From contig PITV01000003.1 of assembly GCA_017577285.1 (NCBI GenBank), forward strand, positions 1-34,915: a DNA stretch of 34,915 nucleotides, given 5' to 3'. A program made the position numbers and the translations under genes. The DNA is from Clostridiales bacterium (lineage in GTDB: Bacteria; Bacillota; Clostridia; Christensenellales; Aristaeellaceae). Below are positions 3,366 through 31,826 of this stretch, piece by piece. Within the stretch, counting starts at the first letter, position 1. Every line of letters starts with the position of its first letter. A model generated the notes under the pieces. That model worked only from the letters and a program-made list of their open reading frames with translations, was not told where the DNA came from and ran no database searches.

Positions 3366-5441
3366 TCAGTATCTTTGTCCCACTATTTTCTCGGAGATGC
3401 TCCTGGGCACTTCCTCATAGTGGTCAAACTGCATGGTATACATTCCGCGTCCCTGTGTGCGGCTGCGCAGATCAGTGGCATAGCCGAACATCTCACTGAG
3501 GGGAACATAGGAATGGACGGATTGCTCGCCCTGACGGGGATCGATGGATTCGATCCTGCCGCGGCGGGAATTGAGATCGCCCACCACATCGCCCAGATAC
3601 TGATCGGGCACGATGGTCTCCACCTTCATGCAGGGCTCGAGCAGCCTTTCTTCGGCGGTCCTGAGCGCATCCTTGAACGCCATGGAACCGGCGATCTTGA
3701 ATGCCATTTCGGAAGAGTCCACTTCGTGGTAGGAACCATCGAGCAATGTAGCCTTGAAATCCACCACCTCGTAGCCGCCCAGAGAGCCGGCCTGAGCCGC
3801 TTCCCTGATACCGGTATCGATGGGTGCGATGAATTCCTTGGGCACGACACCGCCGATGATCTTGTTTTCAAACTGGTAACCCGAGCCGGGCTCCAGAGGC
3901 TCGATCTCGATCACACAGTGACCATACTGGCCGTGTCCGCCGGTCTGACGCACGAAACGTCCTTCGCCTTTGCACTTGCGGGTGACGGTCTCCTTGTAGG
4001 CGACCTGGGGCTTGCCCACGGTGGCCTCCACTTTGAACTCGCGCATCAGTCGGTCAACAATGATCTCCAGATGCAGTTCACCCATACCGGCAATGATGGT
4101 CTGGCCTGTTTCCTGATCGGTGTATGTCTTGAAGGTGGGGTCTTCCTCCGCGAGGCGCTGGAGCGCAAGCGCCATCTTGTCCTGACCGGCTTTGGTCTTG
4201 GGCTCGATAGCTACCTGGATCACAGGTTCGGGGAACACCATGTTCTCCAATACAACGGGAGCCTTGTCGTCGCACAGCGTATCACCGGTGGTAGTCTCTT
4301 TCAAGCCCACCGCCGCGCCGATCTCGCCCGCGTAGACCTGATCTACGTCTTCACGGTGATTGGCATGCATCATGACGATGCGGCTGAAACGCTCGCGCTT
4401 TCCTTTGGTTGAATTGTACACATAGCTGCCGGTCTGGATGGTTCCGGAATAAACGCGGAAGAATGCCAGCTTGCCCACAAAGGGGTCCACAGCGATCTTG
4501 AAGGCCAGAGCCGAGAAGGGCTCTTCGTCAGAGGAGTGACGGATGACCTGCTTTTCGCTGTCTCCGGGATCCGTACCCGTTACCGGGGGGATGTCCAGAG
4601 GAGAGGGCAGATATGCGATAACGGCATCCAGCAGGGGCTGTACGCCCTTGTTGCGGTAGGAAGTTCCGCACAGAACGGGAGTCAGCGTGCAGGAAATGGT
4701 GGCGGCGCGCAGAGAGGCAATGATCTCTTCCTCGGTGATCTCCTCACCGGAGAAGTACTTTTCAGTCAGTTCATCGCTCTGCTCGGCAGCGACCTCGACC
4801 ATCCTGTCGTGTGCTTCCTGAGCTTCTGCAAGCAGTTCTTCGGGGATCTCTTCCTCGCGGATGTCGACTCCGTCATCATCGTAGTAAACCTCGGCCTTCA
4901 TCCGCACCAGGTCGATGATGCCGCGGAAGGAAGCTTCCTTGCCGATAGGCAGCTGGACCGGGATGGGATTGGCGTTCAGACGGCTCTTCATCATGTCAAC
5001 AACGCGGTGGAAGTTGGCACCGGTGATATCCATCTTGTTCACATACGCGATGCGGGGAACGTTGTACTTGTTGGCCTGACGCCATACGGTCTCGCTCTGG
5101 GGCTCAACGCCGCCTTTCGCGCAGAACACGGCGACAGCACCGTCCAGTACACGCAGAGAACGTTCTACTTCCACAGTGAAATCCACATGGCCCGGGGTAT
5201 CGATCAGATTGATGCGGTAGCCCTTCCACTGGCAGGTGGTGGCGGCGGAAGTAATGGTGATGCCGCGTTCCTGTTCCTCCTCCATCCAGTCCATCACGGC
5301 AGCGCCTTCGTGCACCTCGCCCATGCGGTGCGTTCTGCCCGTGTAGAACAGGATACGCTCGCTGGTGGTCGTTTTGCCGGCATCGATATGCGCCATGATA
5401 CCGATATTGCGGACCTTTTCAAGGGGATGACTTCTTGGCAT
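3366..5441 (-). CDS. fusA: Elongation factor G
   Basis: [42 protein letters not shown], full-length 691 aa. Confidence 0.99.
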
Positions 5442-5480
5442 GCGGTTGTTCTCCTGATATACTAATTTATATAGGAAGAA

Positions 5481-5951
5481 TTACCAGCGATAGTGGGCGA
5501 AAGCCTTGTTGGCTTCGGCCATACGGTGCATTTCTTCCTTGCGCTTCACAGCGTTGCCGGTGTTGTTGGCGGCATCCATCAGTTCGGCGGCCAGGCGTTC
5601 AGCCATGGTCTTCTCACCGCGGGTGCGGCTGAAGTCAACGATCCAGCGCAGGGCCAGAGTCTGACGTCTTTCGGGACGGATCTCGATAGGCACCTGGTAG
5701 GTGGCGCCGCCGACGCGGCGGGCCTTGACTTCCAGCTGGGGCATCACATTGTTCAGCGCTTCCTGGAAGACTTCATTGCCTTCCTTACCGGTCTTTTCCT
5801 TGATCATGTCAAATGCGCTGTAGCAAACCTGCTGAGCAACGCCGCGCTTGCCGTCGAGCATGATCTGGTTGATAAGCTTGGTAACTACCACGGTTCCGTG
5901 AACAGGATCGGGCAGCACTTCACGCTTGGGGATAAATCCACGACGGGACAT
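5481..5951 (-). CDS. rpsG: 30S ribosomal protein S7
   Basis: [40 protein letters not shown]...; 156 aa. Confidence 0.98.
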
Positions 5952-7834: not shown

Positions 7835-7943
7835 GCTGTCTGCGGGCAGAAGCGCATATCGCAGGCTCCGCTCATTGTCTTTGTTTCCGGAATGTGATAT
7901 GATATGGCTGGTACCGGAATAAAGAGGAAGGATGCGAGCCAGT

Positions 7944-9587
7944 ATGAAAAAGAGAAAGGTGACCGTGCTGTTCCTGCTCGGTCTGGCCCTGTGCCTGATC
8001 GCGGTGCAGGCCGCGGCAGCGTCCGAGCTTACGGAAGCCTCCATCACCTTCACCGTCCGGGACAGCGAGTACACGGTGGTCAGCTATAAGCACAATGATA
8101 CTTTTTATTTTCTTCTCCCCTCCTTCGCTGAAGAGACAGACGCGGCGGTCTCCCTCACCTTTTCCTCCGGCGCTGCGGAAAATGTGCAGGCGCGGCTGAT
8201 CCCGGGTGAAGACCTGATCTGCACCTGCAAGGGACGGGATCTGCGCTTCAGAACAGTCAGGAGCGGGAACATCCCCGCCCTGTTCATCGATGTATCCGCC
8301 GCCGGCGGTCTGAACAGGCTCAACAAATCAAAAAGCAATGTGCTGCCGGGTTCCGCGGTCCTGACCGCGCCCTCCGGGGAGATCCTTTACAGCGGCGAGC
8401 TCACCTCCGTCAAGGGGCGCGGGAACAAGAGCTGGGATATGCCCAAGAAGGGATACGGCATAAAGCTGGCGGAAAAAGCCGATCTGCTGGGCATGGGCAA
8501 GGACAGGAACTGGGTCCTGATCCCCACCTACCGGGACAATTCTCTGCTCAATTTCCGCATCATCAACGATCTGGCGTTCTACGGCGGCATGCCCTTTGCC
8601 CAGCAGAGCAGGTATGTCGACCTTTACATCGACGGCGATTACCGGGGCGTCTATCTGCTGACGGAAAAAATGGAGACCGGCAAAAACCGCATCGATATCA
8701 GGGATCTGGAGGAGGCCACAGAGCAGGTCAACACGGAACCGCTGAATTCCTTCCGCCGCAGGAAGCTCTCCAATATCGAAAGATCGGGAGCGGCCGGGTT
8801 CTGCTGGACCATTCCAAACGATCCGGAGGACATCACCGGCGGCTATCTGCTGGAATTCGACACCGCCGAGAAGGCCGAAAATGAAGCCTCCCGTTTCGGC
8901 ACCGACAACGGCCTCACCCTCTCCGTAAAGAGCCCCAAGTACATCACAGAGGCGCAGCTGACCTACATCGCCGTGCTGTGGCAGGATTTTGAGAACGCGC
9001 TCTATTCCAGAACGGGCTATAATCGCAAGGGCATCCACTATTCCGAGTATATCGACATGGAAAGCTTCGCCATGCTCTGGCTGCTGGATGAATTCGGGAT
9101 GGAGATCGACATCTCCTCCAGCCACTATTTCTGGAAGGATTCCGATCTGACGGGAGACGGAAAGATCCATGCCTGCGCCCCCTGGGATGTGGAGCACTGC
9201 TTCAAGCGCGAGAAATACGCCTTTGATTATCTGCCGGCCAACGGCGCCTGCAGGCATTTCTGGCGGGATCTGTACAATCTGCATGAGGATTTCAGACAGA
9301 CAGTCAGGGAGGTATGGCAGAATTCCCTGTACCCCGCGCTGTGCCTCCTGCTGGATGAAGACAATACAGCGCAGCCCTACACCGGCATGTGTTCCTATGA
9401 TACCTATGTTTCCTTTGTTGAACCGGCGGCCCGGATGAATTTCATCCGCTGGCCCAGAGCCCTGTCCACCCAGGTGGATGACCGTTCCTGCAAAACCTGG
9501 GAGGAATGCGTGGAATACGTGAGAAAGTATCTGACCGGCAGGACAGCGTACATGAACACGGTCTACGGAGCGGATGCCGCGCAGTGA
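7944..9587 (+). CDS. CotH-like family secreted protein (divergent)
   Basis: LTSVKGRGNKSWDMPKKGYGIKLAEKADLLGMGKDRNWVLIPTYRDNSLLNFRI...YVDLYIDGDYRGVYLLTEKMETGKNRIDI...IPNDPEDITGGYLLEFD...APWDVEHCF: CotH pattern; signal-like N-terminus. Confidence 0.8.
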   Translation: MKKRKVTVLFLLGLALCLIAVQAAAASELTEASITFTVRDSEYTVVSYKHNDTFYFLLPSFAEETDAAVSLTFSSGAAENVQARLIPGEDLICTCKGRDLRFRTVRSGNIPALFIDVSAAGGLNRLNKSKSNVLPGSAVLTAPSGEILYSGELTSVKGRGNKSWDMPKKGYGIKLAEKADLLGMGKDRNWVLIPTYRDNSLLNFRIINDLAFYGGMPFAQQSRYVDLYIDGDYRGVYLLTEKMETGKNRIDIRDLEEATEQVNTEPLNSFRRRKLSNIERSGAAGFCWTIPNDPEDITGGYLLEFDTAEKAENEASRFGTDNGLTLSVKSPKYITEAQLTYIAVLWQDFENALYSRTGYNRKGIHYSEYIDMESFAMLWLLDEFGMEIDISSSHYFWKDSDLTGDGKIHACAPWDVEHCFKREKYAFDYLPANGACRHFWRDLYNLHEDFRQTVREVWQNSLYPALCLLLDEDNTAQPYTGMCSYDTYVSFVEPAARMNFIRWPRALSTQVDDRSCKTWEECVEYVRKYLTGRTAYMNTVYGADAAQ

Positions 9588-9700: not shown

Positions 9701-11428
9701 TTATTCGCCCTCATCCAGCCAGATGGAATCCAGATACGCCATCCTGACCGTCAGGAAATCCCGGATATACTCGATGTTATCGTGATAGGTCTTTCCGGTA
9801 TTGACAGGAAAATCCCTGTCGTGCTTTCCGAGGGTCGGCCTGAGCAGGAAGTTCATCCGCGTGCTGGGAGCGAGCAGAGCCTCATACTCATCCAGGCTCC
9901 TGAGGTTTCCGGTGGCCCCAGACGGCTCCCTCTGCCCCAGCAGCACCTCGATCATCGGCCGGAAGACCGTGCGGTAGGCTTCCTTCACGGCAGCCCTGAA
10001 ATCCTCATGCGCGTACAGCTTCGGGAAGAAATAATACTCCTCAATGGATCTTTCGGCACCCGGCTTTTCGCCTACCAGAAGCCCTTCGGGCACGTTGGTC
10101 TTTCCGGCGTATTTGTCATCGGAATACACGCCCAGGCTGTTGTCAAAATCCCACACCGGGCCGAAAAACAGCTTGGTGCTCACGCTGTCCGGATACTTGT
10201 ACATATAGAAGCTGGTCTTGTTGCCGTCCAGGTTCTTCATGATCTCCTCGATCAGGTATTTCTGCACCATGGAGGTCATATCCGCGATCTCGGTGTAGTG
10301 GCGCCCAGTCACGGGGTCGATGCCGTCCTCAGCGGAAATGGCGTTTTCAAAGGACTGGACCAGTGATCTGATATACTGCATCTGGGCCTTCGAGGCGAAT
10401 TCGGGAGACTTGACCAGTATGCACTGGCCGCAGTCGGTGACAAATCCGCACATGGAGCCCACATACCGCTTGCTCAGCTCGATCTGGATCAGATATCCGC
10501 CGGTGATATCCTCCGGGTCGTTGGGGATGTTGTAATACTTGTACGACCCGTTCCTCACCTTGTCTGTTCCCATCTGTCCGTAAGAGGAAAGGGGCCTGGA
10601 ATTGAGCGCCTCCGTCGCCTCCTCCAGATCAAAGATCTCCACGCGGTTCTTCCCCACCTGCACCTTTTCCGTCAGCATGAAGGTGCCGTAATAGCTGTTG
10701 TTGACATAGACATCCACGAACCGGTAATGCATGGAAAATGTCATGCCGGCCGCATCCGCCATATCCAGCGCGATGGCGTCCCTGATCTGGGAGTTGTCGC
10801 AGTAGTTGGCCAGCAGCAGCCAGGTCTTAGCCTTCTTCATGCCCAGGATCTTCGCTTTCACAGGCAGTTTCAGGTGAAAGGATTTCTTCACGACCTGGAA
10901 GGAATAATTGCCGCGCAGGCGCACATAGTCCAGTTCTCCCTCATAGGAGATCTCCCCGTTCACATCAACGATCTTTACGGAGCCGCCCTCGTGATGCCGC
11001 TTGCTTTCCGACAGATAGTTCAGGCTGCCCGATTCGGTCCTCAGATAGACCGCTCCGGCGTTGGCGGACTGGTACACCGTCACCTCATACCGGTTCTTCC
11101 CGTTGGAGACCGTCACCGTGGTCCCGGGCACAAAGGCCCCGGTCAGTTCCCGGTTGGCGACCGTCTCCCCGTTCACCTCGAAATCAGAGGCGTCCCCCGT
11201 CAGATAAACGCGAAGGGAGGATGTGTCCATACAGGCGGGCAGATACAGATCATACTTTCCGCTGTCCGTCTTTTTCCAGCGTATCGCCTCCACAGGAACG
11301 GTCTTTCCTTCAGCCACCGCTGTATCCGCATCGCACACATACAGCACCTTGATCTCCCTGGCCTGGGCGCACAGGGGCAGCAGGAGCGCGGCGAGCACGA
11401 TCAGCAGGAATACGGTATATCTTCGCAT
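9701..11428 (-). CDS. CotH-like family secreted protein
   Basis: Signal peptide MRRYTVFLLIVLAALLLPLCAQA; YVRLRGNYSFQVVKKSFHLKL, TWLLLANYCDNSQIRDAIALDMA, FVDVYVNNSYYGTFMLTEKVQVGKNRVEI, GPVWDFDNSLG. Confidence 0.85.
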   Translation of the reverse strand: MRRYTVFLLIVLAALLLPLCAQAREIKVLYVCDADTAVAEGKTVPVEAIRWKKTDSGKYDLYLPACMDTSSLRVYLTGDASDFEVNGETVANRELTGAFVPGTTVTVSNGKNRYEVTVYQSANAGAVYLRTESGSLNYLSESKRHHEGGSVKIVDVNGEISYEGELDYVRLRGNYSFQVVKKSFHLKLPVKAKILGMKKAKTWLLLANYCDNSQIRDAIALDMADAAGMTFSMHYRFVDVYVNNSYYGTFMLTEKVQVGKNRVEIFDLEEATEALNSRPLSSYGQMGTDKVRNGSYKYYNIPNDPEDITGGYLIQIELSKRYVGSMCGFVTDCGQCILVKSPEFASKAQMQYIRSLVQSFENAISAEDGIDPVTGRHYTEIADMTSMVQKYLIEEIMKNLDGNKTSFYMYKYPDSVSTKLFFGPVWDFDNSLGVYSDDKYAGKTNVPEGLLVGEKPGAERSIEEYYFFPKLYAHEDFRAAVKEAYRTVFRPMIEVLLGQREPSGATGNLRSLDEYEALLAPSTRMNFLLRPTLGKHDRDFPVNTGKTYHDNIEYIRDFLTVRMAYLDSIWLDEGE

Positions 11429-11513: not shown

Positions 11514-13343
11514 TCACTCCAGATTCTCGAAGAAATCGTTGTTCAGCACATCATCCCCCACCAGGGAACGGTACAGTCCGAAGCAGGTGTTGTCATTTTC
11601 CTTTCCCGCCACATCCAGGGAATAGAACTCGCTGTGATGGGCCTCGGTGGTGTGTTTCTCAAAGGCGATATACGCCACCGCCATGGGAGAAAGATTCATC
11701 AGGTTTTCATCCGGCTCGTACCAGTCGATCCCGATGCGGTGATCCGGATCATACAGGTGCATATAGAACTTCGGCACATCCCACACGCCGTATTTTTCCG
11801 CGCTTTCGGGATAGTTCGACGGATCCCCCGCCAGCAGCACGCCGTTCAGGGTGGCATCCGCCGTCAGGCGGTGATTGAAGTGGCCGAACTCGCCCCCCAG
11901 GTCATGACCGATGAGCACATCCGGTTTGTACCGGCGGATGACCTCCACCGTTTTCATGTACATGTTGTCATAGCCGCCCCAGTCCTCGATATTCTGCTCC
12001 CAGGTGGCGCGCTCATCCACCATGCCCAGGTAAACGGGGTAATATCTCTCCCCCAGCACCCACAGGGCGTTCAGGGTTTCGGTGCGGGCGGGCCGACCCA
12101 GCATGGGATCGGTCATATATACGATGGCGACCGTCTTTCCCCGGCTGACGCACCAGGGCACGATGCCGGAGAAGAACAGGCATTCATCATCCCGGTGGGC
12201 GATGATCAGCATCACATCCACCTTGTCCGGCAGCTGCTGCCAGTTCTGGGCGACCACGGGGACCTCCCCCTGCCGGTACACATACAGTTCCGTCAGCATG
12301 GTGTCCCTGCCCTCCGCGCTGATCTCCGCCTTCACAGCGCCCGCGGGCACCCCGTAATAGGTGATATAGAAACCGCCCTCATTGGCATCGGTGACATCCC
12401 CGATCACATTTCCGCCTGCATCCGTATAGATGACTCTGATATCATGGGTGACATCCAGCCATTCGGTCTGGATCGCCTCCATCTGCTCCCCCGCCGGGAA
12501 GGTGATGATCAGGCTCTTGCCGTTCATCTTCCATCCGTCGATGCAGCTGCCGTCTGTCAGCCGTTCCAGATCGCGCTGTGAAATGTTATAGGTGCAGTCC
12601 TCCACAGCGCTGTACTGCCGGGCAAAGTGGCCGTTCACGCAGAACACGCTGTTATAAAGCACCGCTTCCTGATCCCCGGATCTGACGCTGACGGTCAGGT
12701 AGCGGTCCCCGGGCCGCATCTTTTTGAAGAGGATCTGTCTGCTGAGTTTTGAAAGGTCGATCTCGGTCACGTTCTCACTTGCGGAATAGAACAGACACAC
12801 GCCGCACTCCTCCCGGATGTTCCGGAAGTTGTAGAACATCACCCGCACTTCCGTCACAGGCCTGTTCGCGCGGATCTTTCCCTTCAGAGCGGTGCCCTCG
12901 CCGAACATCATCAGGTACGGGATATCCGCGTCCTCCAGCACCGCTTCCAGAGGATCGCCCGGAATGTCTTCCGGCAGCATTTCATCGCCGGGCACCACCT
13001 TGCTCTTCAGCACATAGCCGGCGGCGCCCTTCCTGTTCGCGATCAGGTATTCCTCGCCGCTCTCTCCCAGGATGTAGCATTCCTCGCCGCCGCTCATCTC
13101 CTCGATGGTGGTCCCCTTGTATGTGGTGAGGCCCATTACGGCATAGGATTTCATTTTCGCGCGGACGGGATGCTCATAGCGCGTCAGCCTTGACCCGGCC
13201 AGCACCTCCTCCGCCTGTTCCTCGCGGGTGGCGGCCAGCGCCGTGCAGCCTGTCAGAAGCAGAAGGCACAGCAGCAGAGCGCACCCCTTTCTCAGCAGAT
13301 CATGTCGCGCTGATATATTCAGCTTTTTTCTCATTTCCGGCAT
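11514..13343 (-). CDS. Lipoprotein with N-terminal SH3-like region and C-terminal PIG-L (LmbE-type) deacetylase domain
   Basis: Lipobox-like LLLLTGC; IIAHRDDECLFFSG (PIG-L AHxDDE motif) and GGEFGHFNHRLTADA (HxxH-type motif). Confidence 0.85.
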   Translation of the reverse strand: MPEMRKKLNISARHDLLRKGCALLLCLLLLTGCTALAATREEQAEEVLAGSRLTRYEHPVRAKMKSYAVMGLTTYKGTTIEEMSGGEECYILGESGEEYLIANRKGAAGYVLKSKVVPGDEMLPEDIPGDPLEAVLEDADIPYLMMFGEGTALKGKIRANRPVTEVRVMFYNFRNIREECGVCLFYSASENVTEIDLSKLSRQILFKKMRPGDRYLTVSVRSGDQEAVLYNSVFCVNGHFARQYSAVEDCTYNISQRDLERLTDGSCIDGWKMNGKSLIITFPAGEQMEAIQTEWLDVTHDIRVIYTDAGGNVIGDVTDANEGGFYITYYGVPAGAVKAEISAEGRDTMLTELYVYRQGEVPVVAQNWQQLPDKVDVMLIIAHRDDECLFFSGIVPWCVSRGKTVAIVYMTDPMLGRPARTETLNALWVLGERYYPVYLGMVDERATWEQNIEDWGGYDNMYMKTVEVIRRYKPDVLIGHDLGGEFGHFNHRLTADATLNGVLLAGDPSNYPESAEKYGVWDVPKFYMHLYDPDHRIGIDWYEPDENLMNLSPMAVAYIAFEKHTTEAHHSEFYSLDVAGKENDNTCFGLYRSLVGDDVLNNDFFENLE

Positions 13344-13446: not shown

Positions 13447-13600
13447 GGAATGCCCCTCTCACAAATATCGTTGCGCCCTCCTCCGTCAGGAAATGCCCGG
13501 AGGCCGGGCCCGCATCCCGGATGCGGCCGTAAGGAGAGGAGGAGAAAGAGACGGTAAGGATATTCTTTTTCTTTATCGTTTTTTTTTCTTTATCGTTTTA

Positions 13601-13632
13601 TTTTTCTTTCTCTTTTTCCTTTTCTTTTTCTT
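13601..13632. repeat. 32-nt uninterrupted polypyrimidine (polypurine on minus) tract
   Basis: tttttctttctctttttccttttctttttctt, preceded by a 12-nt direct repeat ctttatcgtttt at 13571 and 13588. Confidence 0.9.
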
Positions 13633-13640
13633 GTATGCGT

Positions 13641-13720
13641 ACGCATGCAGCCGCATGTTCCCGCACGGTTTCGCATCATTCCGCATATGTCCGCATCATC
13701 CCGCATGCGTCCGCATATCC
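13641..13720. repeat. Eight contiguous 10-nt degenerate direct repeats with invariant CGCA core
   Basis: acgcatgcag/ccgcatgttc/ccgcacggtt/tcgcatcatt/ccgcatatgt/ccgcatcatc/ccgcatgcgt/ccgcatatcc. Confidence 0.85.
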
Positions 13721-13876: not shown

Positions 13877-13905
13877 TTGAAAAAGACAGTTTCATCATAT
13901 ATAAT
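13877..13905 (+). promoter_or_regulatory. gapA promoter (TTGAAA-N17-TATAAT)
   Basis: TTGAAA 13877-13882, TATAAT 13900-13905; AGGAGG SD before ATG 13965. Confidence 0.85.
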
Positions 13906-13964: not shown

Positions 13965-14990
13965 ATGGTTAAGGTTGCTATCAATGGTTTCGGTCGTATC
14001 GGTCGTCTCGCTTTCCGTCAGATGTTTGACGCCGAAGGTTATGAAGTAGTTGCCATCAACGATCTGACCAGCCCCGCTATGCTGGCTCATCTGCTGAAGT
14101 ATGATACCGCCCAGCGCGGCTTCTGCGGCGTGATCGGCGAAGAAAAGCACACCGTTTCCGCTACCGAAGATTCCATCATCGTAGACGGCAAGGAAATCAA
14201 GATCTACGCTGAAAAAGACGCCAACAACTGCCCCTGGGGCAAGCTGGATGTGGATGTCGTTCTCGAGTGCACCGGTTTCTACTGCAGCAAGGACAAGTCC
14301 ATGGCTCACATCAACGCCGGCGCCAAGAAGGTCGTTATTTCCGCTCCTGCCGGCAACGATCTGAAGACCATCGTCTTCTCCGTCAACAATGACACCCTGA
14401 CCGCTGAAGATCAGATCATCTCCGCCGCTTCCTGCACCACCAACTGCCTGGCCCCCATGGCCAAGGCCCTGAATGATAACTTCCCCATCCAGAGCGGCAT
14501 CATGACCACCGTGCACGCTTACACCGGTGACCAGATGATCCTGGACGGCCCCCATCGCAAGGGCGATCTGCGTCGTGCCCGTGCCGGCGCTCAGAACATC
14601 GTTCCCAACTCCACCGGCGCTGCCAAGGCCATCGGCCTGGTCATCCCCGAGCTGAACGGCAAGCTGATCGGCTCCGCCCAGCGCGTTCCCGTATGCACCG
14701 GTTCCACCACCATCCTGGTAGCCGTCGTCAAGGGTCAGAACGTGACCAAGGACGCCATCAACGCCGCCATGAAGGCTCAGGCTTCCGCTTCCTTCGGCTA
14801 CACCGAGGAGCCCATCGTTTCCTCCGACGTCATCGGCATGAAGTTCGGTTCTCTGTTCGATGCCACCCAGACCATGGTCGCCAAGCTGGACGATGACACC
14901 TATCAGGTGCAGGTCGTATCCTGGTACGACAACGAGAACTCCTACACCAGCCAGATGGTCCGCACCATCAAGTACTTCGCCGAGCTGTAA
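13965..14990 (+). CDS. gapA: Type I glyceraldehyde-3-phosphate dehydrogenase
   Basis: [60 protein letters not shown]. Confidence 0.98.
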
Positions 14991-17065: not shown

Positions 17066-19345
17066 TCATTTGATCGTCCAGTAGTAGTAGATCAGATCAC
17101 TGTCATCCGTAATGATCCGCGTTCCGTCTGTGTAATTCGTCTGTTTGACGGCGACATTCACCTCATGGATACGGGCCCTGTCCGGGATGTCAAAGTAGTC
17201 CGAATACATCTCGCTCAGCGGCTCTACCTGCCGGTAGATGACGTAGGTGTAGCTGCTGCTCCTCGTTCCGTTCTGATCCACGGTGTACACACTGATCACA
17301 TAGGATTTGACCGTTTTCTCCGCGGAAGGATTGACGACCTCGAAATGGAAGCTCAGCTTGTCCCCGTTAGCGTTCCACTCACCGTAGCCCGGGCTCTTCA
17401 CTTCCAGTCCCCCGTCAGATCTTCCTGAAATGATCTTTCCGTAGGAAGCGGAAACATAATTTTCCGTTCCGCTGTACATGATCTTGTACCAGGTGCTCCC
17501 GTTCGTCCCCTGGACGGTATCCAGATAGATGTACATATCGCCGTCATTGGCGTATCCCACTTTTTCATAATTTGTACCGGGGCCCTTGCGCACATTGCAG
17601 CCGTTGGAAATGAGCACATACTGGCCGGAGGACCGCGGCGCGGGAGTGGCGGTACGCTTCGGGGTTGCCGTGCGCTTCGGGGTGGGTGTAGCCGTGCGTT
17701 TCGGTGTCGCCGTGCGCTTCGGGGTGGGTGTAGCCGTGCGTTTCGGTGTCGCCGTGCGCTTCGGGGTAGGTGTAGCCGTGCGTCTCGGCGTGGCCGTAGC
17801 GGTGCGTTTGGGTGCGGCTGTAACGGAATATCCGGACTTCGCCCTGCATTCGTCCGCGTAGTCCTTATATTCGGCATCTCCCGAGATCTCATACGCCTTC
17901 ATGTAGTATTCAGCGGCTCTTCCGTAATCAAGACTCACGCCGTAGCCCTCTTCATACACCATGCCCAGAAGATAGAAGGCAATATAGTCCGTATCGTCCA
18001 TCGCCACCGCTTTTTCCAGATTGTCCTTTGCCAGGTGCTTGTCTTTTTCCTTCACATCGGGGCAGAAATAATAGTACACGCCCAGGCCGTAATATCCGTT
18101 CTGGTTGTTCTTGTCCGCCAGCTTGCTGAAGATCTCAAAGGCTTTCTGATAGTCGGTATACCGGTCATCCAGCATATAGATGCAGCCCAGCCGGAAGTAG
18201 GCGAATTCATCGCCCTCCGCCGATGCGCGCTCATACCATACGATCGCCTGGCGGATGTTCTCCTCCGTGCCGATCCCGTCCTCGTAGCAGTAGGCCAGAT
18301 ACTTCATGCCCCGGACATTGCCGGCATTCGCGGATCTCTCCGCCCACATGAAGGCCTCCGCCGCGGTGAGCTTCGATGTATATTCACTGTAGTACATCCA
18401 GAACACATCGGCCATGCCGTCCGGATCGCCCATCTGGGCGGCTTTATAGTAATTCTCATAGGCCTTCTGCATATCCTGATCCACATACAGGCCGAAGTAG
18501 TACATATCCCCCAGCCTGTCATAGGCCAGCGCGCTGCCGAGGCCCGCTGCCGTCATGTAGTTGTCATAGGCGCGCCTGTAATCCTCAGTCCTGTAATAAT
18601 CATCGCCCCTTGAGCAGTAGGAATCCGCCTCGGCGGAGGAACCTGCGGCGGGCTTCACTGTCGCTGTCGGCCGGGCGGTGGGACCCGCGTTCAGCTTCCG
18701 GTACAGATCGGTGACCTCGGTGATATTGACCGCCAGGTTGACATTCTGCGTATCAACGATGTACGCGCTGGTGATCCCGATGACCTCGCCGTCATCGTTG
18801 AACAGGGCGCCGCCGCTGCTGCCGTGGCTGATGGGCGCGGTGAACTGGATCCATTTCACGCCGTCCTCGGAATAAATGGCGCTGATATTGCCGATGGACA
18901 CAGTGTTCGTGATGCCCTTCGGGCTGCCGATGGCCACAACGTTCTGAGCACGCATCAGGCCGGTATTGGAGGAGAGCGGAAGGGGCTCCAGCCCGGTGGG
19001 GGAACCGAAGCTGACGATGGCGATATCCTTGATCTCATCGGTGATCAGCACCCGGCCCATCTTGTACCGCACGCCGTCATCGCTGTTGGCCACGATGGAG
19101 ACCGCGTCCTCCACCACATGATAATTGGTCACCAGGGTCATGTTGTCGAACGCCACAAAGCCGCTGCCGGTGGCGGTCAGATTTCCGTACTTGTCATATA
19201 TTTCCAGCATCAGCACAGAATCCGCCGCTTTATCGATGGCGACAGGATCATTACTGAAGCCTTCAGCCAGAGCGACGGACATGAGGATGACCGCGCTCAG
19301 AGCGATGAGGATGAGAGGTTTTATGATCTTTCCGGATCTGTTCAT
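17066..19345 (-). CDS. Secreted trypsin-like serine protease with Sel1/TPR repeats, Thr/Pro/Lys-rich repeat linker, SH3-like domain and C-terminal domain
   Basis: Catalytic triad context VTNYHVVEDAV...KDIAIVSFG...SHGSSGGALFNDDGEVIGI; several YxxGxxxxxDxxKAxExYxKAA repeats; (KRTATPTPKRTATP)n; VLISNGCNVRKGPGTNYEKVGYANDGD. Confidence 0.87.
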   Translation of the reverse strand: MNRSGKIIKPLILIALSAVILMSVALAEGFSNDPVAIDKAADSVLMLEIYDKYGNLTATGSGFVAFDNMTLVTNYHVVEDAVSIVANSDDGVRYKMGRVLITDEIKDIAIVSFGSPTGLEPLPLSSNTGLMRAQNVVAIGSPKGITNTVSIGNISAIYSEDGVKWIQFTAPISHGSSGGALFNDDGEVIGITSAYIVDTQNVNLAVNITEVTDLYRKLNAGPTARPTATVKPAAGSSAEADSYCSRGDDYYRTEDYRRAYDNYMTAAGLGSALAYDRLGDMYYFGLYVDQDMQKAYENYYKAAQMGDPDGMADVFWMYYSEYTSKLTAAEAFMWAERSANAGNVRGMKYLAYCYEDGIGTEENIRQAIVWYERASAEGDEFAYFRLGCIYMLDDRYTDYQKAFEIFSKLADKNNQNGYYGLGVYYYFCPDVKEKDKHLAKDNLEKAVAMDDTDYIAFYLLGMVYEEGYGVSLDYGRAAEYYMKAYEISGDAEYKDYADECRAKSGYSVTAAPKRTATATPRRTATPTPKRTATPKRTATPTPKRTATPKRTATPTPKRTATPKRTATPAPRSSGQYVLISNGCNVRKGPGTNYEKVGYANDGDMYIYLDTVQGTNGSTWYKIMYSGTENYVSASYGKIISGRSDGGLEVKSPGYGEWNANGDKLSFHFEVVNPSAEKTVKSYVISVYTVDQNGTRSSSYTYVIYRQVEPLSEMYSDYFDIPDRARIHEVNVAVKQTNYTDGTRIITDDSDLIYYYWTIK
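17638..17815 (-). repeat. In-frame tandem repeat (18/24-nt units forming a 42-nt higher-order unit) encoding KRTATP / KRTATPTP
   Basis: gtgcgcttcggggtgggtgtagccgtgcgtttcggtgtcgcc is repeated almost identically on the plus strand. Confidence 0.85.
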
Positions 19346-19598: not shown

Positions 19599-20240
19599 TC
19601 AGCCCTGCGCCCTCTCCCCGCTGCGCATCATCCGGATGAGCCGGGGCGCCAGAGGATAGGCCAGAAGCAGACAGATGGCTCCGTCCGGCCCCAGATAGGT
19701 GATGTTGTACACAAAGCTGGCCCACAGCTCGCTGCCCCAGACGAAGTAGCCTGCCAGCGTGGCGCACAGGCAGCGTCCCAGGATACCGCAGAGCATGGCG
19801 CAGAGGATGCCCCAGGTCTTCCACTTTTTCGGAAAGCGGATACCGGCCAGGCCCAGAAACGCGAAGGCCAGCAGAAAGTCCAGGATGAACTCCACCGGAT
19901 GGAACATCTCGCCTCCCTGAATGAACTGCAGCACGCCGTAAGCCACGCCGCAGACAACGCCGGGGCGGGTGCCGAAGGCCGCGGCATAGATCAGAAGGGG
20001 CAGCATGCTGGCCGGCGTGATCGAACCGCCGTTGGGCATGCGGAACAGACGGATGAAGCTGAGCACGAAGCTCAGGGCGATGCTGATGGCGCCGTAGGCT
20101 ATGCTCCGGGCGGAAAAGGAATTTTTCTTTCCCGTGATGATCATCAGCACAGCGGCCAGGGCGATCAGGGAAAACACCGTGATCAGCGCACCTGTGCCGA
20201 ATTCGGAAAACCTGGCAAAAATATCAGAGAACCATTCCAT
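19599..20240 (-). CDS. thiT: ThiT-type energy-coupled thiamine transporter (ECF S component)
   Basis: RMPNGGSITPASMLPLLIYAAAFGTRPGVVCGVAYGVLQFIQGGEMFHPVEFILDFLLAF; multi-TM; downstream of a TPP riboswitch; start reassigned to MEWFSDI at 20240 with a GGGAGG SD. Confidence 0.9.
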   Translation of the reverse strand: MEWFSDIFARFSEFGTGALITVFSLIALAAVLMIITGKKNSFSARSIAYGAISIALSFVLSFIRLFRMPNGGSITPASMLPLLIYAAAFGTRPGVVCGVAYGVLQFIQGGEMFHPVEFILDFLLAFAFLGLAGIRFPKKWKTWGILCAMLCGILGRCLCATLAGYFVWGSELWASFVYNITYLGPDGAICLLLAYPLAPRLIRMMRSGERAQG

Positions 20241-20282
20241 AATGAGCCTCCCACACTGATTTGATATGCGGGTTCCGGCATA

Positions 20283-20310
20283 TAAAAAGCCCGCATGCAT
20301 CACATGCGGG
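20283..20310 (-). terminator. Intrinsic terminator of the TPP riboswitch expression platform
   Basis: Minus strand CCCGCATGTGATGCATGCGGG followed by CTTTTTATA, between the aptamer and thiT. Confidence 0.85.
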
Positions 20311-20342
20311 AAACGGATGAGCGCGATGTTTCATAGCGCGCG

Positions 20343-20417
20343 CCGCTTCCCTCCGGTAGGATAACCTACACAGGTTCCAAGGGACTCTCTCAGCCGCGTT
20401 CGCGGCACCCCCAGCGG
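20343..20417 (-). ncRNA. TPP (THI-box) riboswitch aptamer
   Basis: Minus strand CCGCTGGGGGTGCCGCGAACGCGGCTGAGAGAGTCCCTTGGAACCTGTGTAGGTTATCCTACCGGAGGGAAGCGG; GGGGTGCC, GGCTGAGA, AACCTG and GGAGGGAAG signatures; P1 CCGCT/AGCGG. Confidence 0.95.
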
Positions 20418-20427
20418 ATACGCTGTC

Positions 20428-24974: not shown

Positions 24975-26201
24975 ATGGATAAGATACAAAGTGCTGAAAG
25001 GATGGACCTGATCCACTCGGACATCCGTGGGAAACTGTATCACGAGGCCCTGAAGCTGGAGCAGCAGGGCGAAAAAATACTGCGGCTGAACACGGGAAAC
25101 CCCGCCGCGTTCGGTTTCGGCATGCCGGAGAGCGTGCGTGAAGCGCTGCTGGCGGGCATGGACCGGGCGGTGGCCTACTGCGACAGCCGGGGAATGAAGG
25201 ATGCCCGGGAGGCCATCTGCGGATATGAGACCGGCAAGGGCATCCGGGATATCACGCCCGATGACGTCTTCATCTGCAACGGCGTGAGCGAGGCGGCGCA
25301 GATGCTGTGTCTGACGATGCTCGACCCGGGAGACGAGGTGCTGATGCCGTGTCCCTGCTATTCCCTGTGGAGCAACGGCGCGCGGCTGGCGGGCGCTGTT
25401 CCCGTGCTGTACACCTGCGACGAGCAGCAGGACTGGTACCCCGATGAAAAGGATATAGAACAGAAGATCACCCCCCGCACAAGGGCGCTGCTGATCATCA
25501 ATCCCAACAACCCCACCGGCGCCGTATACGATAAGGAAGCGCTCCTGAGGCTGCTGGATATTGCCCGCAGGCATCATCTGATCATCATTTCGGATGAGAT
25601 CTACGACCGGCTGGTGCTGGATGATATCCCCCATTACTCCTGTGCCGCTCTGGCGCCCGATCTGCCCGTCATCACCTGCAACGGCCTGAGCAAGAGCCAC
25701 ATCATCTGCGGCTTCCGCTGCGGCTGGTGCGTGCTGAGCGGAAAGGATGACATCCTGTCGGATATCCGGGACGCCATGGAGCGCCTCAGCAGCATGCGGC
25801 TGTGCGGGAATACCCTGACCCAGCTGGTGATCCCCGCCGCCCTGAAGGACGAGGCCAGCACAAAAGCCATGCTGGTGCCCGGGGGCAGGCTGTGGGAACA
25901 GCGCAGGGCGGTCATGGAAGTGATCAGCCGCACGGAAGGCATCACCGCTGTGGAGAACAGGGCGGCCTTCTACCTCTTCCCCAAACTGGATATCAAGTCC
26001 TTCGGCATTGAGGACGATCACGCGTTCGGGCTGGGACTGCTCCGTGAAAAGCACATCCTGATCGTGCCCGGCACCGGTTTCGGGTATCCGCAGCAGGATC
26101 ATTTCCGCATCGTGATGCTGCCCGAGCCGGATCAGCTGAGGACGGCCATGGAGGATATCGGCGATTACCTGAACACGCTCCGCGAAAGAAACATGAAATA
26201 A
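24975..26201 (+). CDS. Class I/II PLP-dependent aminotransferase (alanine aminotransferase-like)
   Basis: LRLNTGNPAAFGF, NNPTGAVYDKEALLRLLDIARRHHLIIISDEIYDRLV, GLSKSHIICGFRCGW. Confidence 0.88.
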   Translation: MDKIQSAERMDLIHSDIRGKLYHEALKLEQQGEKILRLNTGNPAAFGFGMPESVREALLAGMDRAVAYCDSRGMKDAREAICGYETGKGIRDITPDDVFICNGVSEAAQMLCLTMLDPGDEVLMPCPCYSLWSNGARLAGAVPVLYTCDEQQDWYPDEKDIEQKITPRTRALLIINPNNPTGAVYDKEALLRLLDIARRHHLIIISDEIYDRLVLDDIPHYSCAALAPDLPVITCNGLSKSHIICGFRCGWCVLSGKDDILSDIRDAMERLSSMRLCGNTLTQLVIPAALKDEASTKAMLVPGGRLWEQRRAVMEVISRTEGITAVENRAAFYLFPKLDIKSFGIEDDHAFGLGLLREKHILIVPGTGFGYPQQDHFRIVMLPEPDQLRTAMEDIGDYLNTLRERNMK

Positions 26202-29488: not shown

Positions 29489-29776
29489 ATGGCAGACACG
29501 GGGATCTGGGTAAGGCTCATGAAAAGGAACCGCATAGAGAAGGATATCACGCAGCCCTGCGCCCGCGATGAATGGGAAGGCGCCCTCGAAGAGGCCTGCC
29601 ACCGTCTTGACGTGCCCCGTCCGCTGGTGATCGACAAGCACAGGCGGGACTGGGAGGCCTTTTCCCAGACAAGGTTCCTGCCCGATCATTTTATCGAGTC
29701 TGTCTCTTTCGACCGGATGGAAGTGGAATACATCAATCCGGAGGAGAAAAAGAAGTTCAATGAAAAGTACCTGTAA
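29489..29776 (+). CDS. Small uncharacterised cytoplasmic-type protein (95 aa), overlaps downstream CotH-like gene
   Basis: Strong SD AAGGAGG; MADTGIWVRLMKRNRIEKDITQPCARDEWEGALEEACHRLDVPRPLVIDKHRRDWEAFSQTRFLPDHFIESVSFDRMEVEYINPEEKKKFNEKYL. Confidence 0.75.
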   Translation: MADTGIWVRLMKRNRIEKDITQPCARDEWEGALEEACHRLDVPRPLVIDKHRRDWEAFSQTRFLPDHFIESVSFDRMEVEYINPEEKKKFNEKYL

Positions 29777-31826
29777 GGCGTTCTCCCTGCTGCTGGCGCT
29801 CTTTCTGATCCTGCCGGTGCTGTGTCCCCTGTTCCCGGCGGTCTCCGCCCTTGCCGCAGGGGACAGCGTGATCATCAATGAGGTCATGGCCTCCAACGGC
29901 ACCTATACGAACGGTCACGCCTATGACTGGCTGGAGCTGTACAACCCCGGAAAAAAGGCGGTGGACCTGAGCGGCTGCTGGCTTTCCAACGATCCGGACA
30001 AGCCCCTGAAATGGCAGTTCCCCTCCGGCAGCAAGCTGGGCGCCGGCAAGTATTTCACCGTTTACTGCACCGGTGAGGAGCATGACAAGGGGAAGAACTC
30101 CGTCTACTACACAACATTCAAAATTTCCGCGAAGGGCGCCACCCTGATCCTGACGGCTGCTGACGGCGAAACGGTCATCACGCGGCTGTATGTGCCCCGG
30201 CAGTACGGCACCGTCAGCTGGGGCCTGCCCAAGGGCGGCGACGCCTGCATGTTCCTCGCCTCGGCCACGCCCGGCAGGGAAAACCCGAAGAAGGGCTATG
30301 CATACCGCTGCGAAACGCCCGTTCTGTCCATGGAGGGCGGTTTCTATGACGGAAAGATCACCGTGACCGCCTCCGGCGCCCCGGGCGACACCCTCCGCTA
30401 CACCACCGACGGCTCCACCCCCACGGAAAAGAGCAAAAAGCTGCCGGGAAGCGGCGTGACCTTTTCCGCCACAGGCTGTCTCAGAGTGCGCGCTTTCAAT
30501 GATAACGCCGTGCCCAGCGCCACAGCCGGCGCCACCTATCTGATCAAGGAGGAGCATCCGGTCCCCGTGGTGTGCCTTATCAGCGATGAGAAATACCTGT
30601 TCAATGAAAAGACCGGCGCGCTGGTAAAGGGCACCGGCAGCACGCCCAACTACGAAAAGGAATTTGAGTACCCGGCCAACATCGAGTACTTCGATGAAAA
30701 CGGCGAATGCCTGATCAATCAGGTGGGCACCTTCACGGCGGCGGGACATTCCGCGAGGCAGAACACCCAGAAATCCATCGCCCTGTATGCCCGGAACGCC
30801 TACGGGGATAACCTTTTCCGTTTCAACCCGTTCCCCAAGCGGAACTATGCGGAGTACAAGAGCCTGCTGCTGAGGAGCGCCAACAGCGATGCCTTCTCCA
30901 CCCGTCTGCGGGACTGCGTCTTCTCCTCTCTGGCTGAAGGGCTGGATCTGCTGTATCAGGACGGCATCGCCGTGGAAGTGTACATCAACGGCAGATACTG
31001 GGGCCATTACAACCTGCGGGAAAAGATCAACAAGTATTTCGTGGCCGCCTGGGAGGGCGTGACGGATGAGGATGACATCGATTCCATCGATATCCTGGCC
31101 CGTTCCGGGTCCGATCAGTTCACGCAGAACGGCAGCAACGCCGACTGGCTGGAACTGGTGCAGTTCTGCAAGACAAAGGATCTGAACATCCCCGAAAATC
31201 TCGCCTGGGTGGAGGAGCGGCTGGATATCGACAGTCTTTTCACCCACGCCGCCTTCGAAATGATCATCGGCAACGGCGATTTCACCAACGTGCGCATGTA
31301 CCGCGTGCCGGGCGGAAAATGGAAATACCTGCTGTTCGATGTGGAGGCCGGGTTCAACAATGACGAGTGGAACCCCGATCCCATCGGATACTATATCCGC
31401 CCTGTCAGCGGCAAGTATCAGGGCTTCCGCCACGAGCCGCTGAACGCGCTGCTGGCGGTGCCGGAAATGAAGGCAAGGTTTCTGAACCGGTACGCGCAGA
31501 TCCTGGAGCACAGCTTCCTGTGGCCGTACATGAATGAAAGGTTCACGGCCTGGGAGGATACCCTGCGTCTCCTGCTCCCCCGGCACATCGCCAGATGGAA
31601 GAATCTGAAGATGACCGCGTGGGAACAGAATGTGAACGCTGTCAAAAACCACGCCCGGCGGCGTCCCGCCGTATCCGTCCTGCTGCTGCAGAAGGCCATG
31701 AAGCTGACGGATGCCGAGATGAGGACATATTTCGGGCCCGTCATGAAACAGCTGATCGACACCAACTTTACCGAGAAGGAAAAAAAGAACTTTTTCGGCA
31801 GGTATACCCCCTGGTGGGAGGAATAA
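29760..31826 (+). CDS. Secreted lamin-tail-domain, chitobiase/FN3-like, CotH-like protein
   Basis: Signal peptide; VIINEVMASNGTYTNGHAYDWLELYNPGKKAVDLSGCWLSNDPDKPLKWQFP (LTD); DTLRYTTDGSTPTEKSK (chitobiase C-like); VEVYINGRYWGHYNLREKINKYFV and LLFDVEAGFN (CotH-like). Confidence 0.88.
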   Translation: MKSTCKAFSLLLALFLILPVLCPLFPAVSALAAGDSVIINEVMASNGTYTNGHAYDWLELYNPGKKAVDLSGCWLSNDPDKPLKWQFPSGSKLGAGKYFTVYCTGEEHDKGKNSVYYTTFKISAKGATLILTAADGETVITRLYVPRQYGTVSWGLPKGGDACMFLASATPGRENPKKGYAYRCETPVLSMEGGFYDGKITVTASGAPGDTLRYTTDGSTPTEKSKKLPGSGVTFSATGCLRVRAFNDNAVPSATAGATYLIKEEHPVPVVCLISDEKYLFNEKTGALVKGTGSTPNYEKEFEYPANIEYFDENGECLINQVGTFTAAGHSARQNTQKSIALYARNAYGDNLFRFNPFPKRNYAEYKSLLLRSANSDAFSTRLRDCVFSSLAEGLDLLYQDGIAVEVYINGRYWGHYNLREKINKYFVAAWEGVTDEDDIDSIDILARSGSDQFTQNGSNADWLELVQFCKTKDLNIPENLAWVEERLDIDSLFTHAAFEMIIGNGDFTNVRMYRVPGGKWKYLLFDVEAGFNNDEWNPDPIGYYIRPVSGKYQGFRHEPLNALLAVPEMKARFLNRYAQILEHSFLWPYMNERFTAWEDTLRLLLPRHIARWKNLKMTAWEQNVNAVKNHARRRPAVSVLLLQKAMKLTDAEMRTYFGPVMKQLIDTNFTEKEKKNFFGRYTPWWEE

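Follow-up and report, generated by a model that had tools for sequence, protein, structure and literature searches.

What purpose could a phased array of 10-nt repeats between a PIG-L gene and gapA serve, and where does it come from? The array lies in a stretch of 34,915 nucleotides that was analyzed at its full length and is called the window here. It consists of eight decamers at positions 13641–13720 (NCGCANNNNN on the plus strand), which keep CGCA at positions 2 to 5 in 8/8 units, exactly as a preliminary description of this sequence had stated. In the window, the most units over which any 4-mer recurs with a period of 10 is 8, whereas the maximum in 100 dinucleotide-preserving shuffles was 3 (mean 2.5); at the other periods from 5 to 25, no 4-mer run in the window exceeded 4. 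Runs of at least 5 NCGCAN5 units were found at 2 places in the 2.6-Mb genome, the window and a contig referred to as C319, and runs of at least 5 units of the reversed control pattern at none. Two features had been missed by the preliminary description, however: a T-rich tract (TTCTTTATCGTTTT...) at approximately 13563–13636 directly abuts the array and is part of the same feature, and the array is to be read on the minus strand, where its core is ATGCGG. On this strand the strand-asymmetric tract is A-rich (13563–13636, about 73% A, 79% A+T, and 89% purine). An Rfam search of the window gave no match, and hence no structured-RNA identity, at the array.

The sole Rfam match in the window was a TPP riboswitch at 20331–20422 on the minus strand (RF00059, 62.8 bits), and the minus-strand ORF just downstream of it (19599–20303) encodes a probable ThiT-like thiamine transporter, as judged from its position and hydrophobic sequence. 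The 35-kb window also encodes 3 proteins with CotH-kinase domains by Pfam, at 7932–9587 (plus strand), 9701–11428 (minus strand), and 29760–31826 (plus strand), one of which has lamin-tail and chitobiase-type domains in addition. A 42-nt tandem repeat at 17655–17806 encodes a (TPKRTATPTPKRTA)n-type stretch within a large protein that is encoded on the minus strand and has a protease-like start.

The position of the array suits an operator or nucleoid-protein array, in which a host regulator would bind cooperatively to the phased sites and control gapA and/or the PIG-L gene. The left neighbor is a PIG-L deacetylase-domain protein (11514–13343, minus strand; Pfam PF02585, E 4e-11) and the right neighbor is gapA, encoding glyceraldehyde-3-phosphate dehydrogenase (13965–14990, plus strand; Pfam), both outside the feature. 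The array sits between two divergent promoter-like sites (gapA, 13877–13905 on the plus strand; PIG-L, 13446–13418 on the minus strand), its units are helically phased and the core is kept in all 8 of them, but it overlaps neither site and is far from both −35 boxes (approximately 160 bp from that of gapA and 195 bp from that of PIG-L). The comparison of gapA upstream regions proposed in the preliminary description also spoke against this explanation: in the 700 bp upstream of 23 gapA orthologues there was no array and no period-10 run longer than 3, even at 93% protein identity. A gapA/PIG-L operator is not supported by this comparison (0/23 orthologues with the array upstream). Moreover, the sole homologue of the array and tract in the genome is located within a coding gene on another contig. 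Regulation of the neighboring genes by the array is thus very improbable.

This homologue emerged from the array search that had also been proposed at the outset. The window segment 13563–13720 (minus strand) is homologous to positions 25438–25583 of C319 (positions 5439–5584 of locus L014), with 80% identity and an E value of 4e-37 by blastn (79% and 3e-34 in the genome search) over approximately 150 nt, and no other homologue of the array and tract occurs in the genome. The layout is that of the window, with a T-rich tract (TTTTCTTTATCGTTTT...) followed by CTTGTATGCGT and then by NCCGCATNNN decamers. The C319 segment is on the coding strand of an intact open gene of 257 amino acids that carries the DUF6291 domain (Pfam PF19808, E 1e-15), the only DUF6291 in this genome. 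There, the array codes for ...GRIREDADACETMRDDAGACGRIQ and the tract for EKEKEKDKENDKEKENKND, and the tract of the window is homologous to this KEKEKDKEN-coding tract. A unit of 10 nt does not comprise a whole number of codons, so that successive units fall into each of the three codon phases in turn, and the protein shows a 10-residue pattern. The last array units of the window and C319 align one-to-one without gaps and with GCGAAAC in register, which favors common descent over independent slippage. The two copies differ at 4 of 32 core positions and at 23 of 48 other positions (P = 0.0015), indicating that the core was constrained at least until the reading frame was lost. That the window array descends from part of a DUF6291 gene is well supported and highly probable.

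A neutral degenerate minisatellite, produced by slippage and linked to no gene, would account for a tandem array with seemingly unconstrained spacers, and generic CCGCAT decamer satellites do occur in other bacteria. Searching our whole collection for four CCGCAT decamers gave 93 loci, 0 of which were in a DUF6291 gene by profile search. Because exact satellites are among them, what is diagnostic is the position in the gene and not the CGCA motif; several of the 93 loci are satellites of this kind. The ancestry that array and tract share with the C319 gene over approximately 150 nt, the one-to-one alignment of the last units, and the recurrence of unrelated decamers at this position of the gene in dozens of relatives (see below) argue against a plain minisatellite, which we consider as improbable as the operator. 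Among the arrays of other bacteria, those of the Bacteroidales MAG SRR10912534_bin.42 (contigs CAMZFW01...; loci L080, L082, L086, L087, L097, L104, L105, L107, L111, L113, and L143) are many, dispersed, and degenerate, with TACCGCATYT, TACCGATTCT, and TACCGAAACT decamers; most of them terminate in a shared cap, GGGGGGTCGTTTGCCGTCGC...GACGGCAAACGA, which has an inverted repeat. They are a different dispersed element with the same 10-nt spacing as in the window. A Bacteroidales contig from horse faeces (L078:5800–5900) contains CGCATACGAC decamers beside an AT-rich TCATATC-type tract in a window-like layout, but it gave no match to DUF6291 and shows no clear gene there.

The window copy is no longer a gene. 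A profile search detected no DUF6291 domain in any frame of the window, and on the minus strand the frame of the C319 gene is interrupted by a TGA in the array (13676–13678; ...CETVREHAAACVRIQEKEKEK in the window, ...DACETMRDDAGACGRIQEKEKEK in the C319 gene) and by a TAA in the tract (13598–13600), followed by a 7-nt deletion with respect to C319 at approximately 13580–13590, so that it reads ...TYAE*CETVREHAAACVRIQEKEKEKEKEK*NDKEK.... The gap of 245 nt between the array and gapA is too short for a DUF6291 domain, a linker, and the gapA promoter, and homology with C319 beyond the ends of the array and tract was not significant (flank P 0.2–0.56). With no N-terminal domain in an open frame and two in-frame stops, the window copy is a relic of the middle segment of a DUF6291 gene and not a member of the family: the array is present and the gene is absent. 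The C319 gene may be defective too, because it has no phage neighbors and seemingly lacks the usual C-terminal domain, both of which count against the explanation that we favor below.

To what use a DUF6291 gene may put such an array is suggested by the other DUF6291 genes, the domain being present in 50 of 301 genomes of this bacterial family. With local codon shuffles as the reference (threshold p ≤ 0.01), self-identity at a lag of 10 nt was measured downstream of the domain in a host set of 37 genes, 36 from the family and more distant host genomes and 1 from Dulem virus 33. Lag 10 was significant in 16/37 genes (mean z 2.5) and lag 20 in 12/37; the counts at lags 8, 9, 11, 13, and 14 were 0, 0, 1, 0, and 2, respectively, while lags 6, 12, 18, and 24 were raised by the dipeptide tract. 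As a control, 104 neighboring ORFs were analyzed, and 1 of them was significant at lag 10 (mean z −0.01; Fisher P 4e-10 versus DUF6291, with the reservation that the DUF6291 genes are interrelated and their counts not fully independent). In a phage set of 21 further genes (17 with the DUF6291 domain and 4 C-terminal relatives with another N-terminus), mean z was 1.7 at lag 10 and 1.3 at lag 20, as opposed to approximately −1.1 to 0.3 at the remaining lags not divisible by 6; individually, 2/21 and 3/21 genes were significant at lags 10 and 20 (p ≤ 0.01). More than half of the DUF6291 genes have no significant lag-10 signal, some having inverted or irregular repeats and some none, which, like the low number of individually significant phage genes, counts against our favored explanation. 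The iteron sequences vary from gene to gene (ATACGAAACG in L043, TCCGACCGCA in L051, GCAAATGCTA in L182, and also GAGCAAACGC); AACCCA iterons, both direct and inverted, occur in Vibrio phages and in Dulem virus 33, and the array unit of L046 is 11 nt long. What is conserved across the DUF6291 genes is the spacing of about one helical turn and the place just after the domain, not the sequence. Downstream of the array, 43 of 53 DUF6291 genes have a 48-nt AT-rich, A-skewed stretch (AT 0.69 versus 0.50 for the gene; AT skew 0.43 versus 0.25), and in most of the genes a C-terminal domain follows array and tract.

The repeats could also serve the protein and not the DNA, as a flexible linker of 10-amino acid repeats (e.g., MRxDAxACxx), and the window copy would then be a plain pseudogene fragment. 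The array segment is indeed a low-complexity linker, and the hexamer tract (KDKDKD, SDSDSD, NVNVNV) suits a peptide linker. However, selection at the protein level predicts multiples of 3 nt, whereas lags of 10 and 20 nt are enriched, and the resulting peptide differs per gene. In addition, the iterons are found in both orientations. The repeats disregard the reading frame, and since a period of 10 crosses all three codon phases, selection on the DNA and not on the peptide is the simplest reason for it. This makes a purely peptide-level role unlikely, although it is the least improbable of the alternatives.

Residues at the end of the domain covary with the iteron DNA and not with DNA further downstream, which also argues against a peptide linker. 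In 49 genes, similarity of the 17 to 20 residues after a conserved Tyr correlated with the 6-mer similarity of the next 80 to 90 nt (r 0.56–0.66). The correlation was 0.52 to 0.62 when the core domain was partialled out (Mantel p ≤ 0.001), 0.53 to 0.59 for pairs with less than 30% core identity, and 0.43 without the marine phages, and control DNA 160 or 250 nt further down gave r values of 0.11 and 0.06. As an example, a bacterial relative (L045) and a Vibrio phage (L226) have RNKxNGxKGGRP tails and AACCCA iterons in common at 23% core identity. Domains ending in NGxKGGRPK (e.g., L045, L049, L186, L221–L227, and L235) were followed by AACCCA/GGGTT iterons in 14/24 genes, versus 5/32 without the motif (P = 0.0014, uncorrected for relatedness). 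These data fit a role of the tail as the segment that would read the iteron sequence, and co-inheritance of adjacent DNA could produce the same correlation.

A search of a literature collection for DUF6291 (PF19808) found no mention of it, and its gene neighborhood points to replication. In tailed phages, DUF6291 genes often adjoin genes for a DnaB-type replicative helicase, a primase or primase/helicase, a DnaC-type loader, or replication protein P, and others lie among Erf, NinB, SSB, and RusA genes. Neither the C319 gene nor the window has a helicase, loader, or primase gene adjacent. The annotation of Vibrio phage 199E37-1 gives an overlap of approximately 68 nt between the DUF6291 gene and the gene for replication protein P (L235:3273–3340), and that of 1.013.O a similar overlap of 35 nt with the next gene. 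The C-terminal part of L179 matches PHROGs annotated as replication initiation protein and primosomal protein (1e-18 to 3e-25). In the AlphaFold model of a DUF6291 protein (pLDDT 83), the N-terminal domain is helical, with a helix of 45 residues at its end, the linker, which is the part encoded by array and tract, is poorly ordered, and the C-terminal domain is small. The structural neighbors of this model in a viral library were DUF6291 proteins and some replisome organizers. A fold search of the PDB with the model gave nothing significant (best E 0.41) and thus no known initiator fold, which counts against our favored explanation; an NCBIfam search and BLAST of the array against phages gave no match.

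Altogether, we consider it probable that the array and the T-rich tract are the orphaned middle of a DUF6291 gene whose DNA holds a phage-type origin. On the sequence evidence, the array probably represents origin iterons that lie within the gene of an initiator, and origin-like iterons phased for oligomeric protein binding, one of the options in the preliminary description, are the best-supported ancestry for it. We infer that DUF6291 proteins are lambda O-like replication initiators that bind these iterons and that DUF6291 genes act as origins. The residues ending the domain would read the iterons, initiator oligomers on one face of the DNA would open the A-rich tract and load the neighboring helicase or primase, the gene thus containing its own origin. 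In the window, only the origin segment would be left; it has lost its gene, is marked by stops and a deletion, and would persist in the chromosome as a relic between the PIG-L gene and gapA. DUF6291 is a widespread phage family previously without a function, and a lambda O-like initiator is the function now suggested for it. If the tail does recognize the iterons, sequence data would suffice to infer which origin many gut and marine phages use specifically. The low-complexity linkers of DUF6291 proteins (MRxDAxAC..., KDKDKD, NVNVNV, SDSDSD) may largely be translated origin.

The window copy itself is probably an inert relic with no evident host function. It may still be able to bind the initiator, and it could be a working non-coding site, either a second origin or a decoy that titrates a phage initiator. 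The core is intact in 8/8 units despite the broken frame, slightly better than simple decay predicts, which counts against our favored explanation; core positions also differ from C319 less often than other positions, and the origin parts survive while the gene flanks do not. In SPP1, this layout recurs in a second origin that is located away from the initiator gene (PMC6316719), and multicopy ectopic lambda origins stopped lambda growth (PMC4488673). However, a single chromosomal copy would be a weak titrant, lambda origin sites alone were insufficient for inhibition in another study (PMC3349717), phage genes are near neither the window copy nor the C319 copy, and the relic is seen in one genome. 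A working site is therefore quite unlikely, and slightly more so its retention by the bacterium as a decoy origin against related DUF6291 phages, or by a satellite element as a second origin. If this were true, the orphan origins that lost prophages leave behind would act as a phage defence that is passive and encoded in the sequence.

In iteron plasmid origins (F and RK2 type), an AT-rich unwinding element likewise adjoins the iterons, which are usually outside the rep gene and about 17 to 22 bp long. Unlike in these plasmids, no plasmid Rep gene is nearby. The lambda origin, of 164 bp, is inside gene O and comprises four iterons of 18 to 19 bp beside an A-T-rich, strand-asymmetric region of 49 bp, with O binding the iterons through its N-terminal half (PMC4488673, PMC7466680), and SPP1 has oriL inside gene 38 and a second origin, oriR, elsewhere (PMC6316719). 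Tandem direct repeats after the N-terminal domain are found in the C319 gene and many DUF6291 genes, and an adjacent AT-rich strand-asymmetric tract in the window (73% A, 89% purine) and family-wide; by analogy, the tract would correspond to the half of a phage origin that is AT-rich. By Pfam, the C319 copy is a member of the family of DUF6291 phage proteins (PF19808; phrog_15768, 16304, and 19415), with array and tract at the same place as in other members, whereas in the window copy the domain is missing and no gene is left. Unlike lambda, with its spacers between iterons, the arrays described here are made of 7 to 8 abutting 10-bp units, our searches matched DUF6291 to no N-terminal domain of a known initiator, and the window copy lacks the gene. 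Unlike SPP1, the putative initiator family is another one, and both copies are on bacterial chromosome contigs without other phage genes. Like SPP1 oriL and oriR, the DUF6291 system combines direct repeats and a putative AT-rich unwinding element within a putative initiator gene, and the layout recurs at a second place. Like lambda, it has direct-repeat iterons and an A+T-rich strand-asymmetric tract within a gene, between the N- and C-terminal parts, it is next to a helicase-loading gene in phages, and it is of the same size class (about 155 bp). By this analogy, the DUF6291 layout is in kind the origin-in-gene layout of lambda and SPP1.
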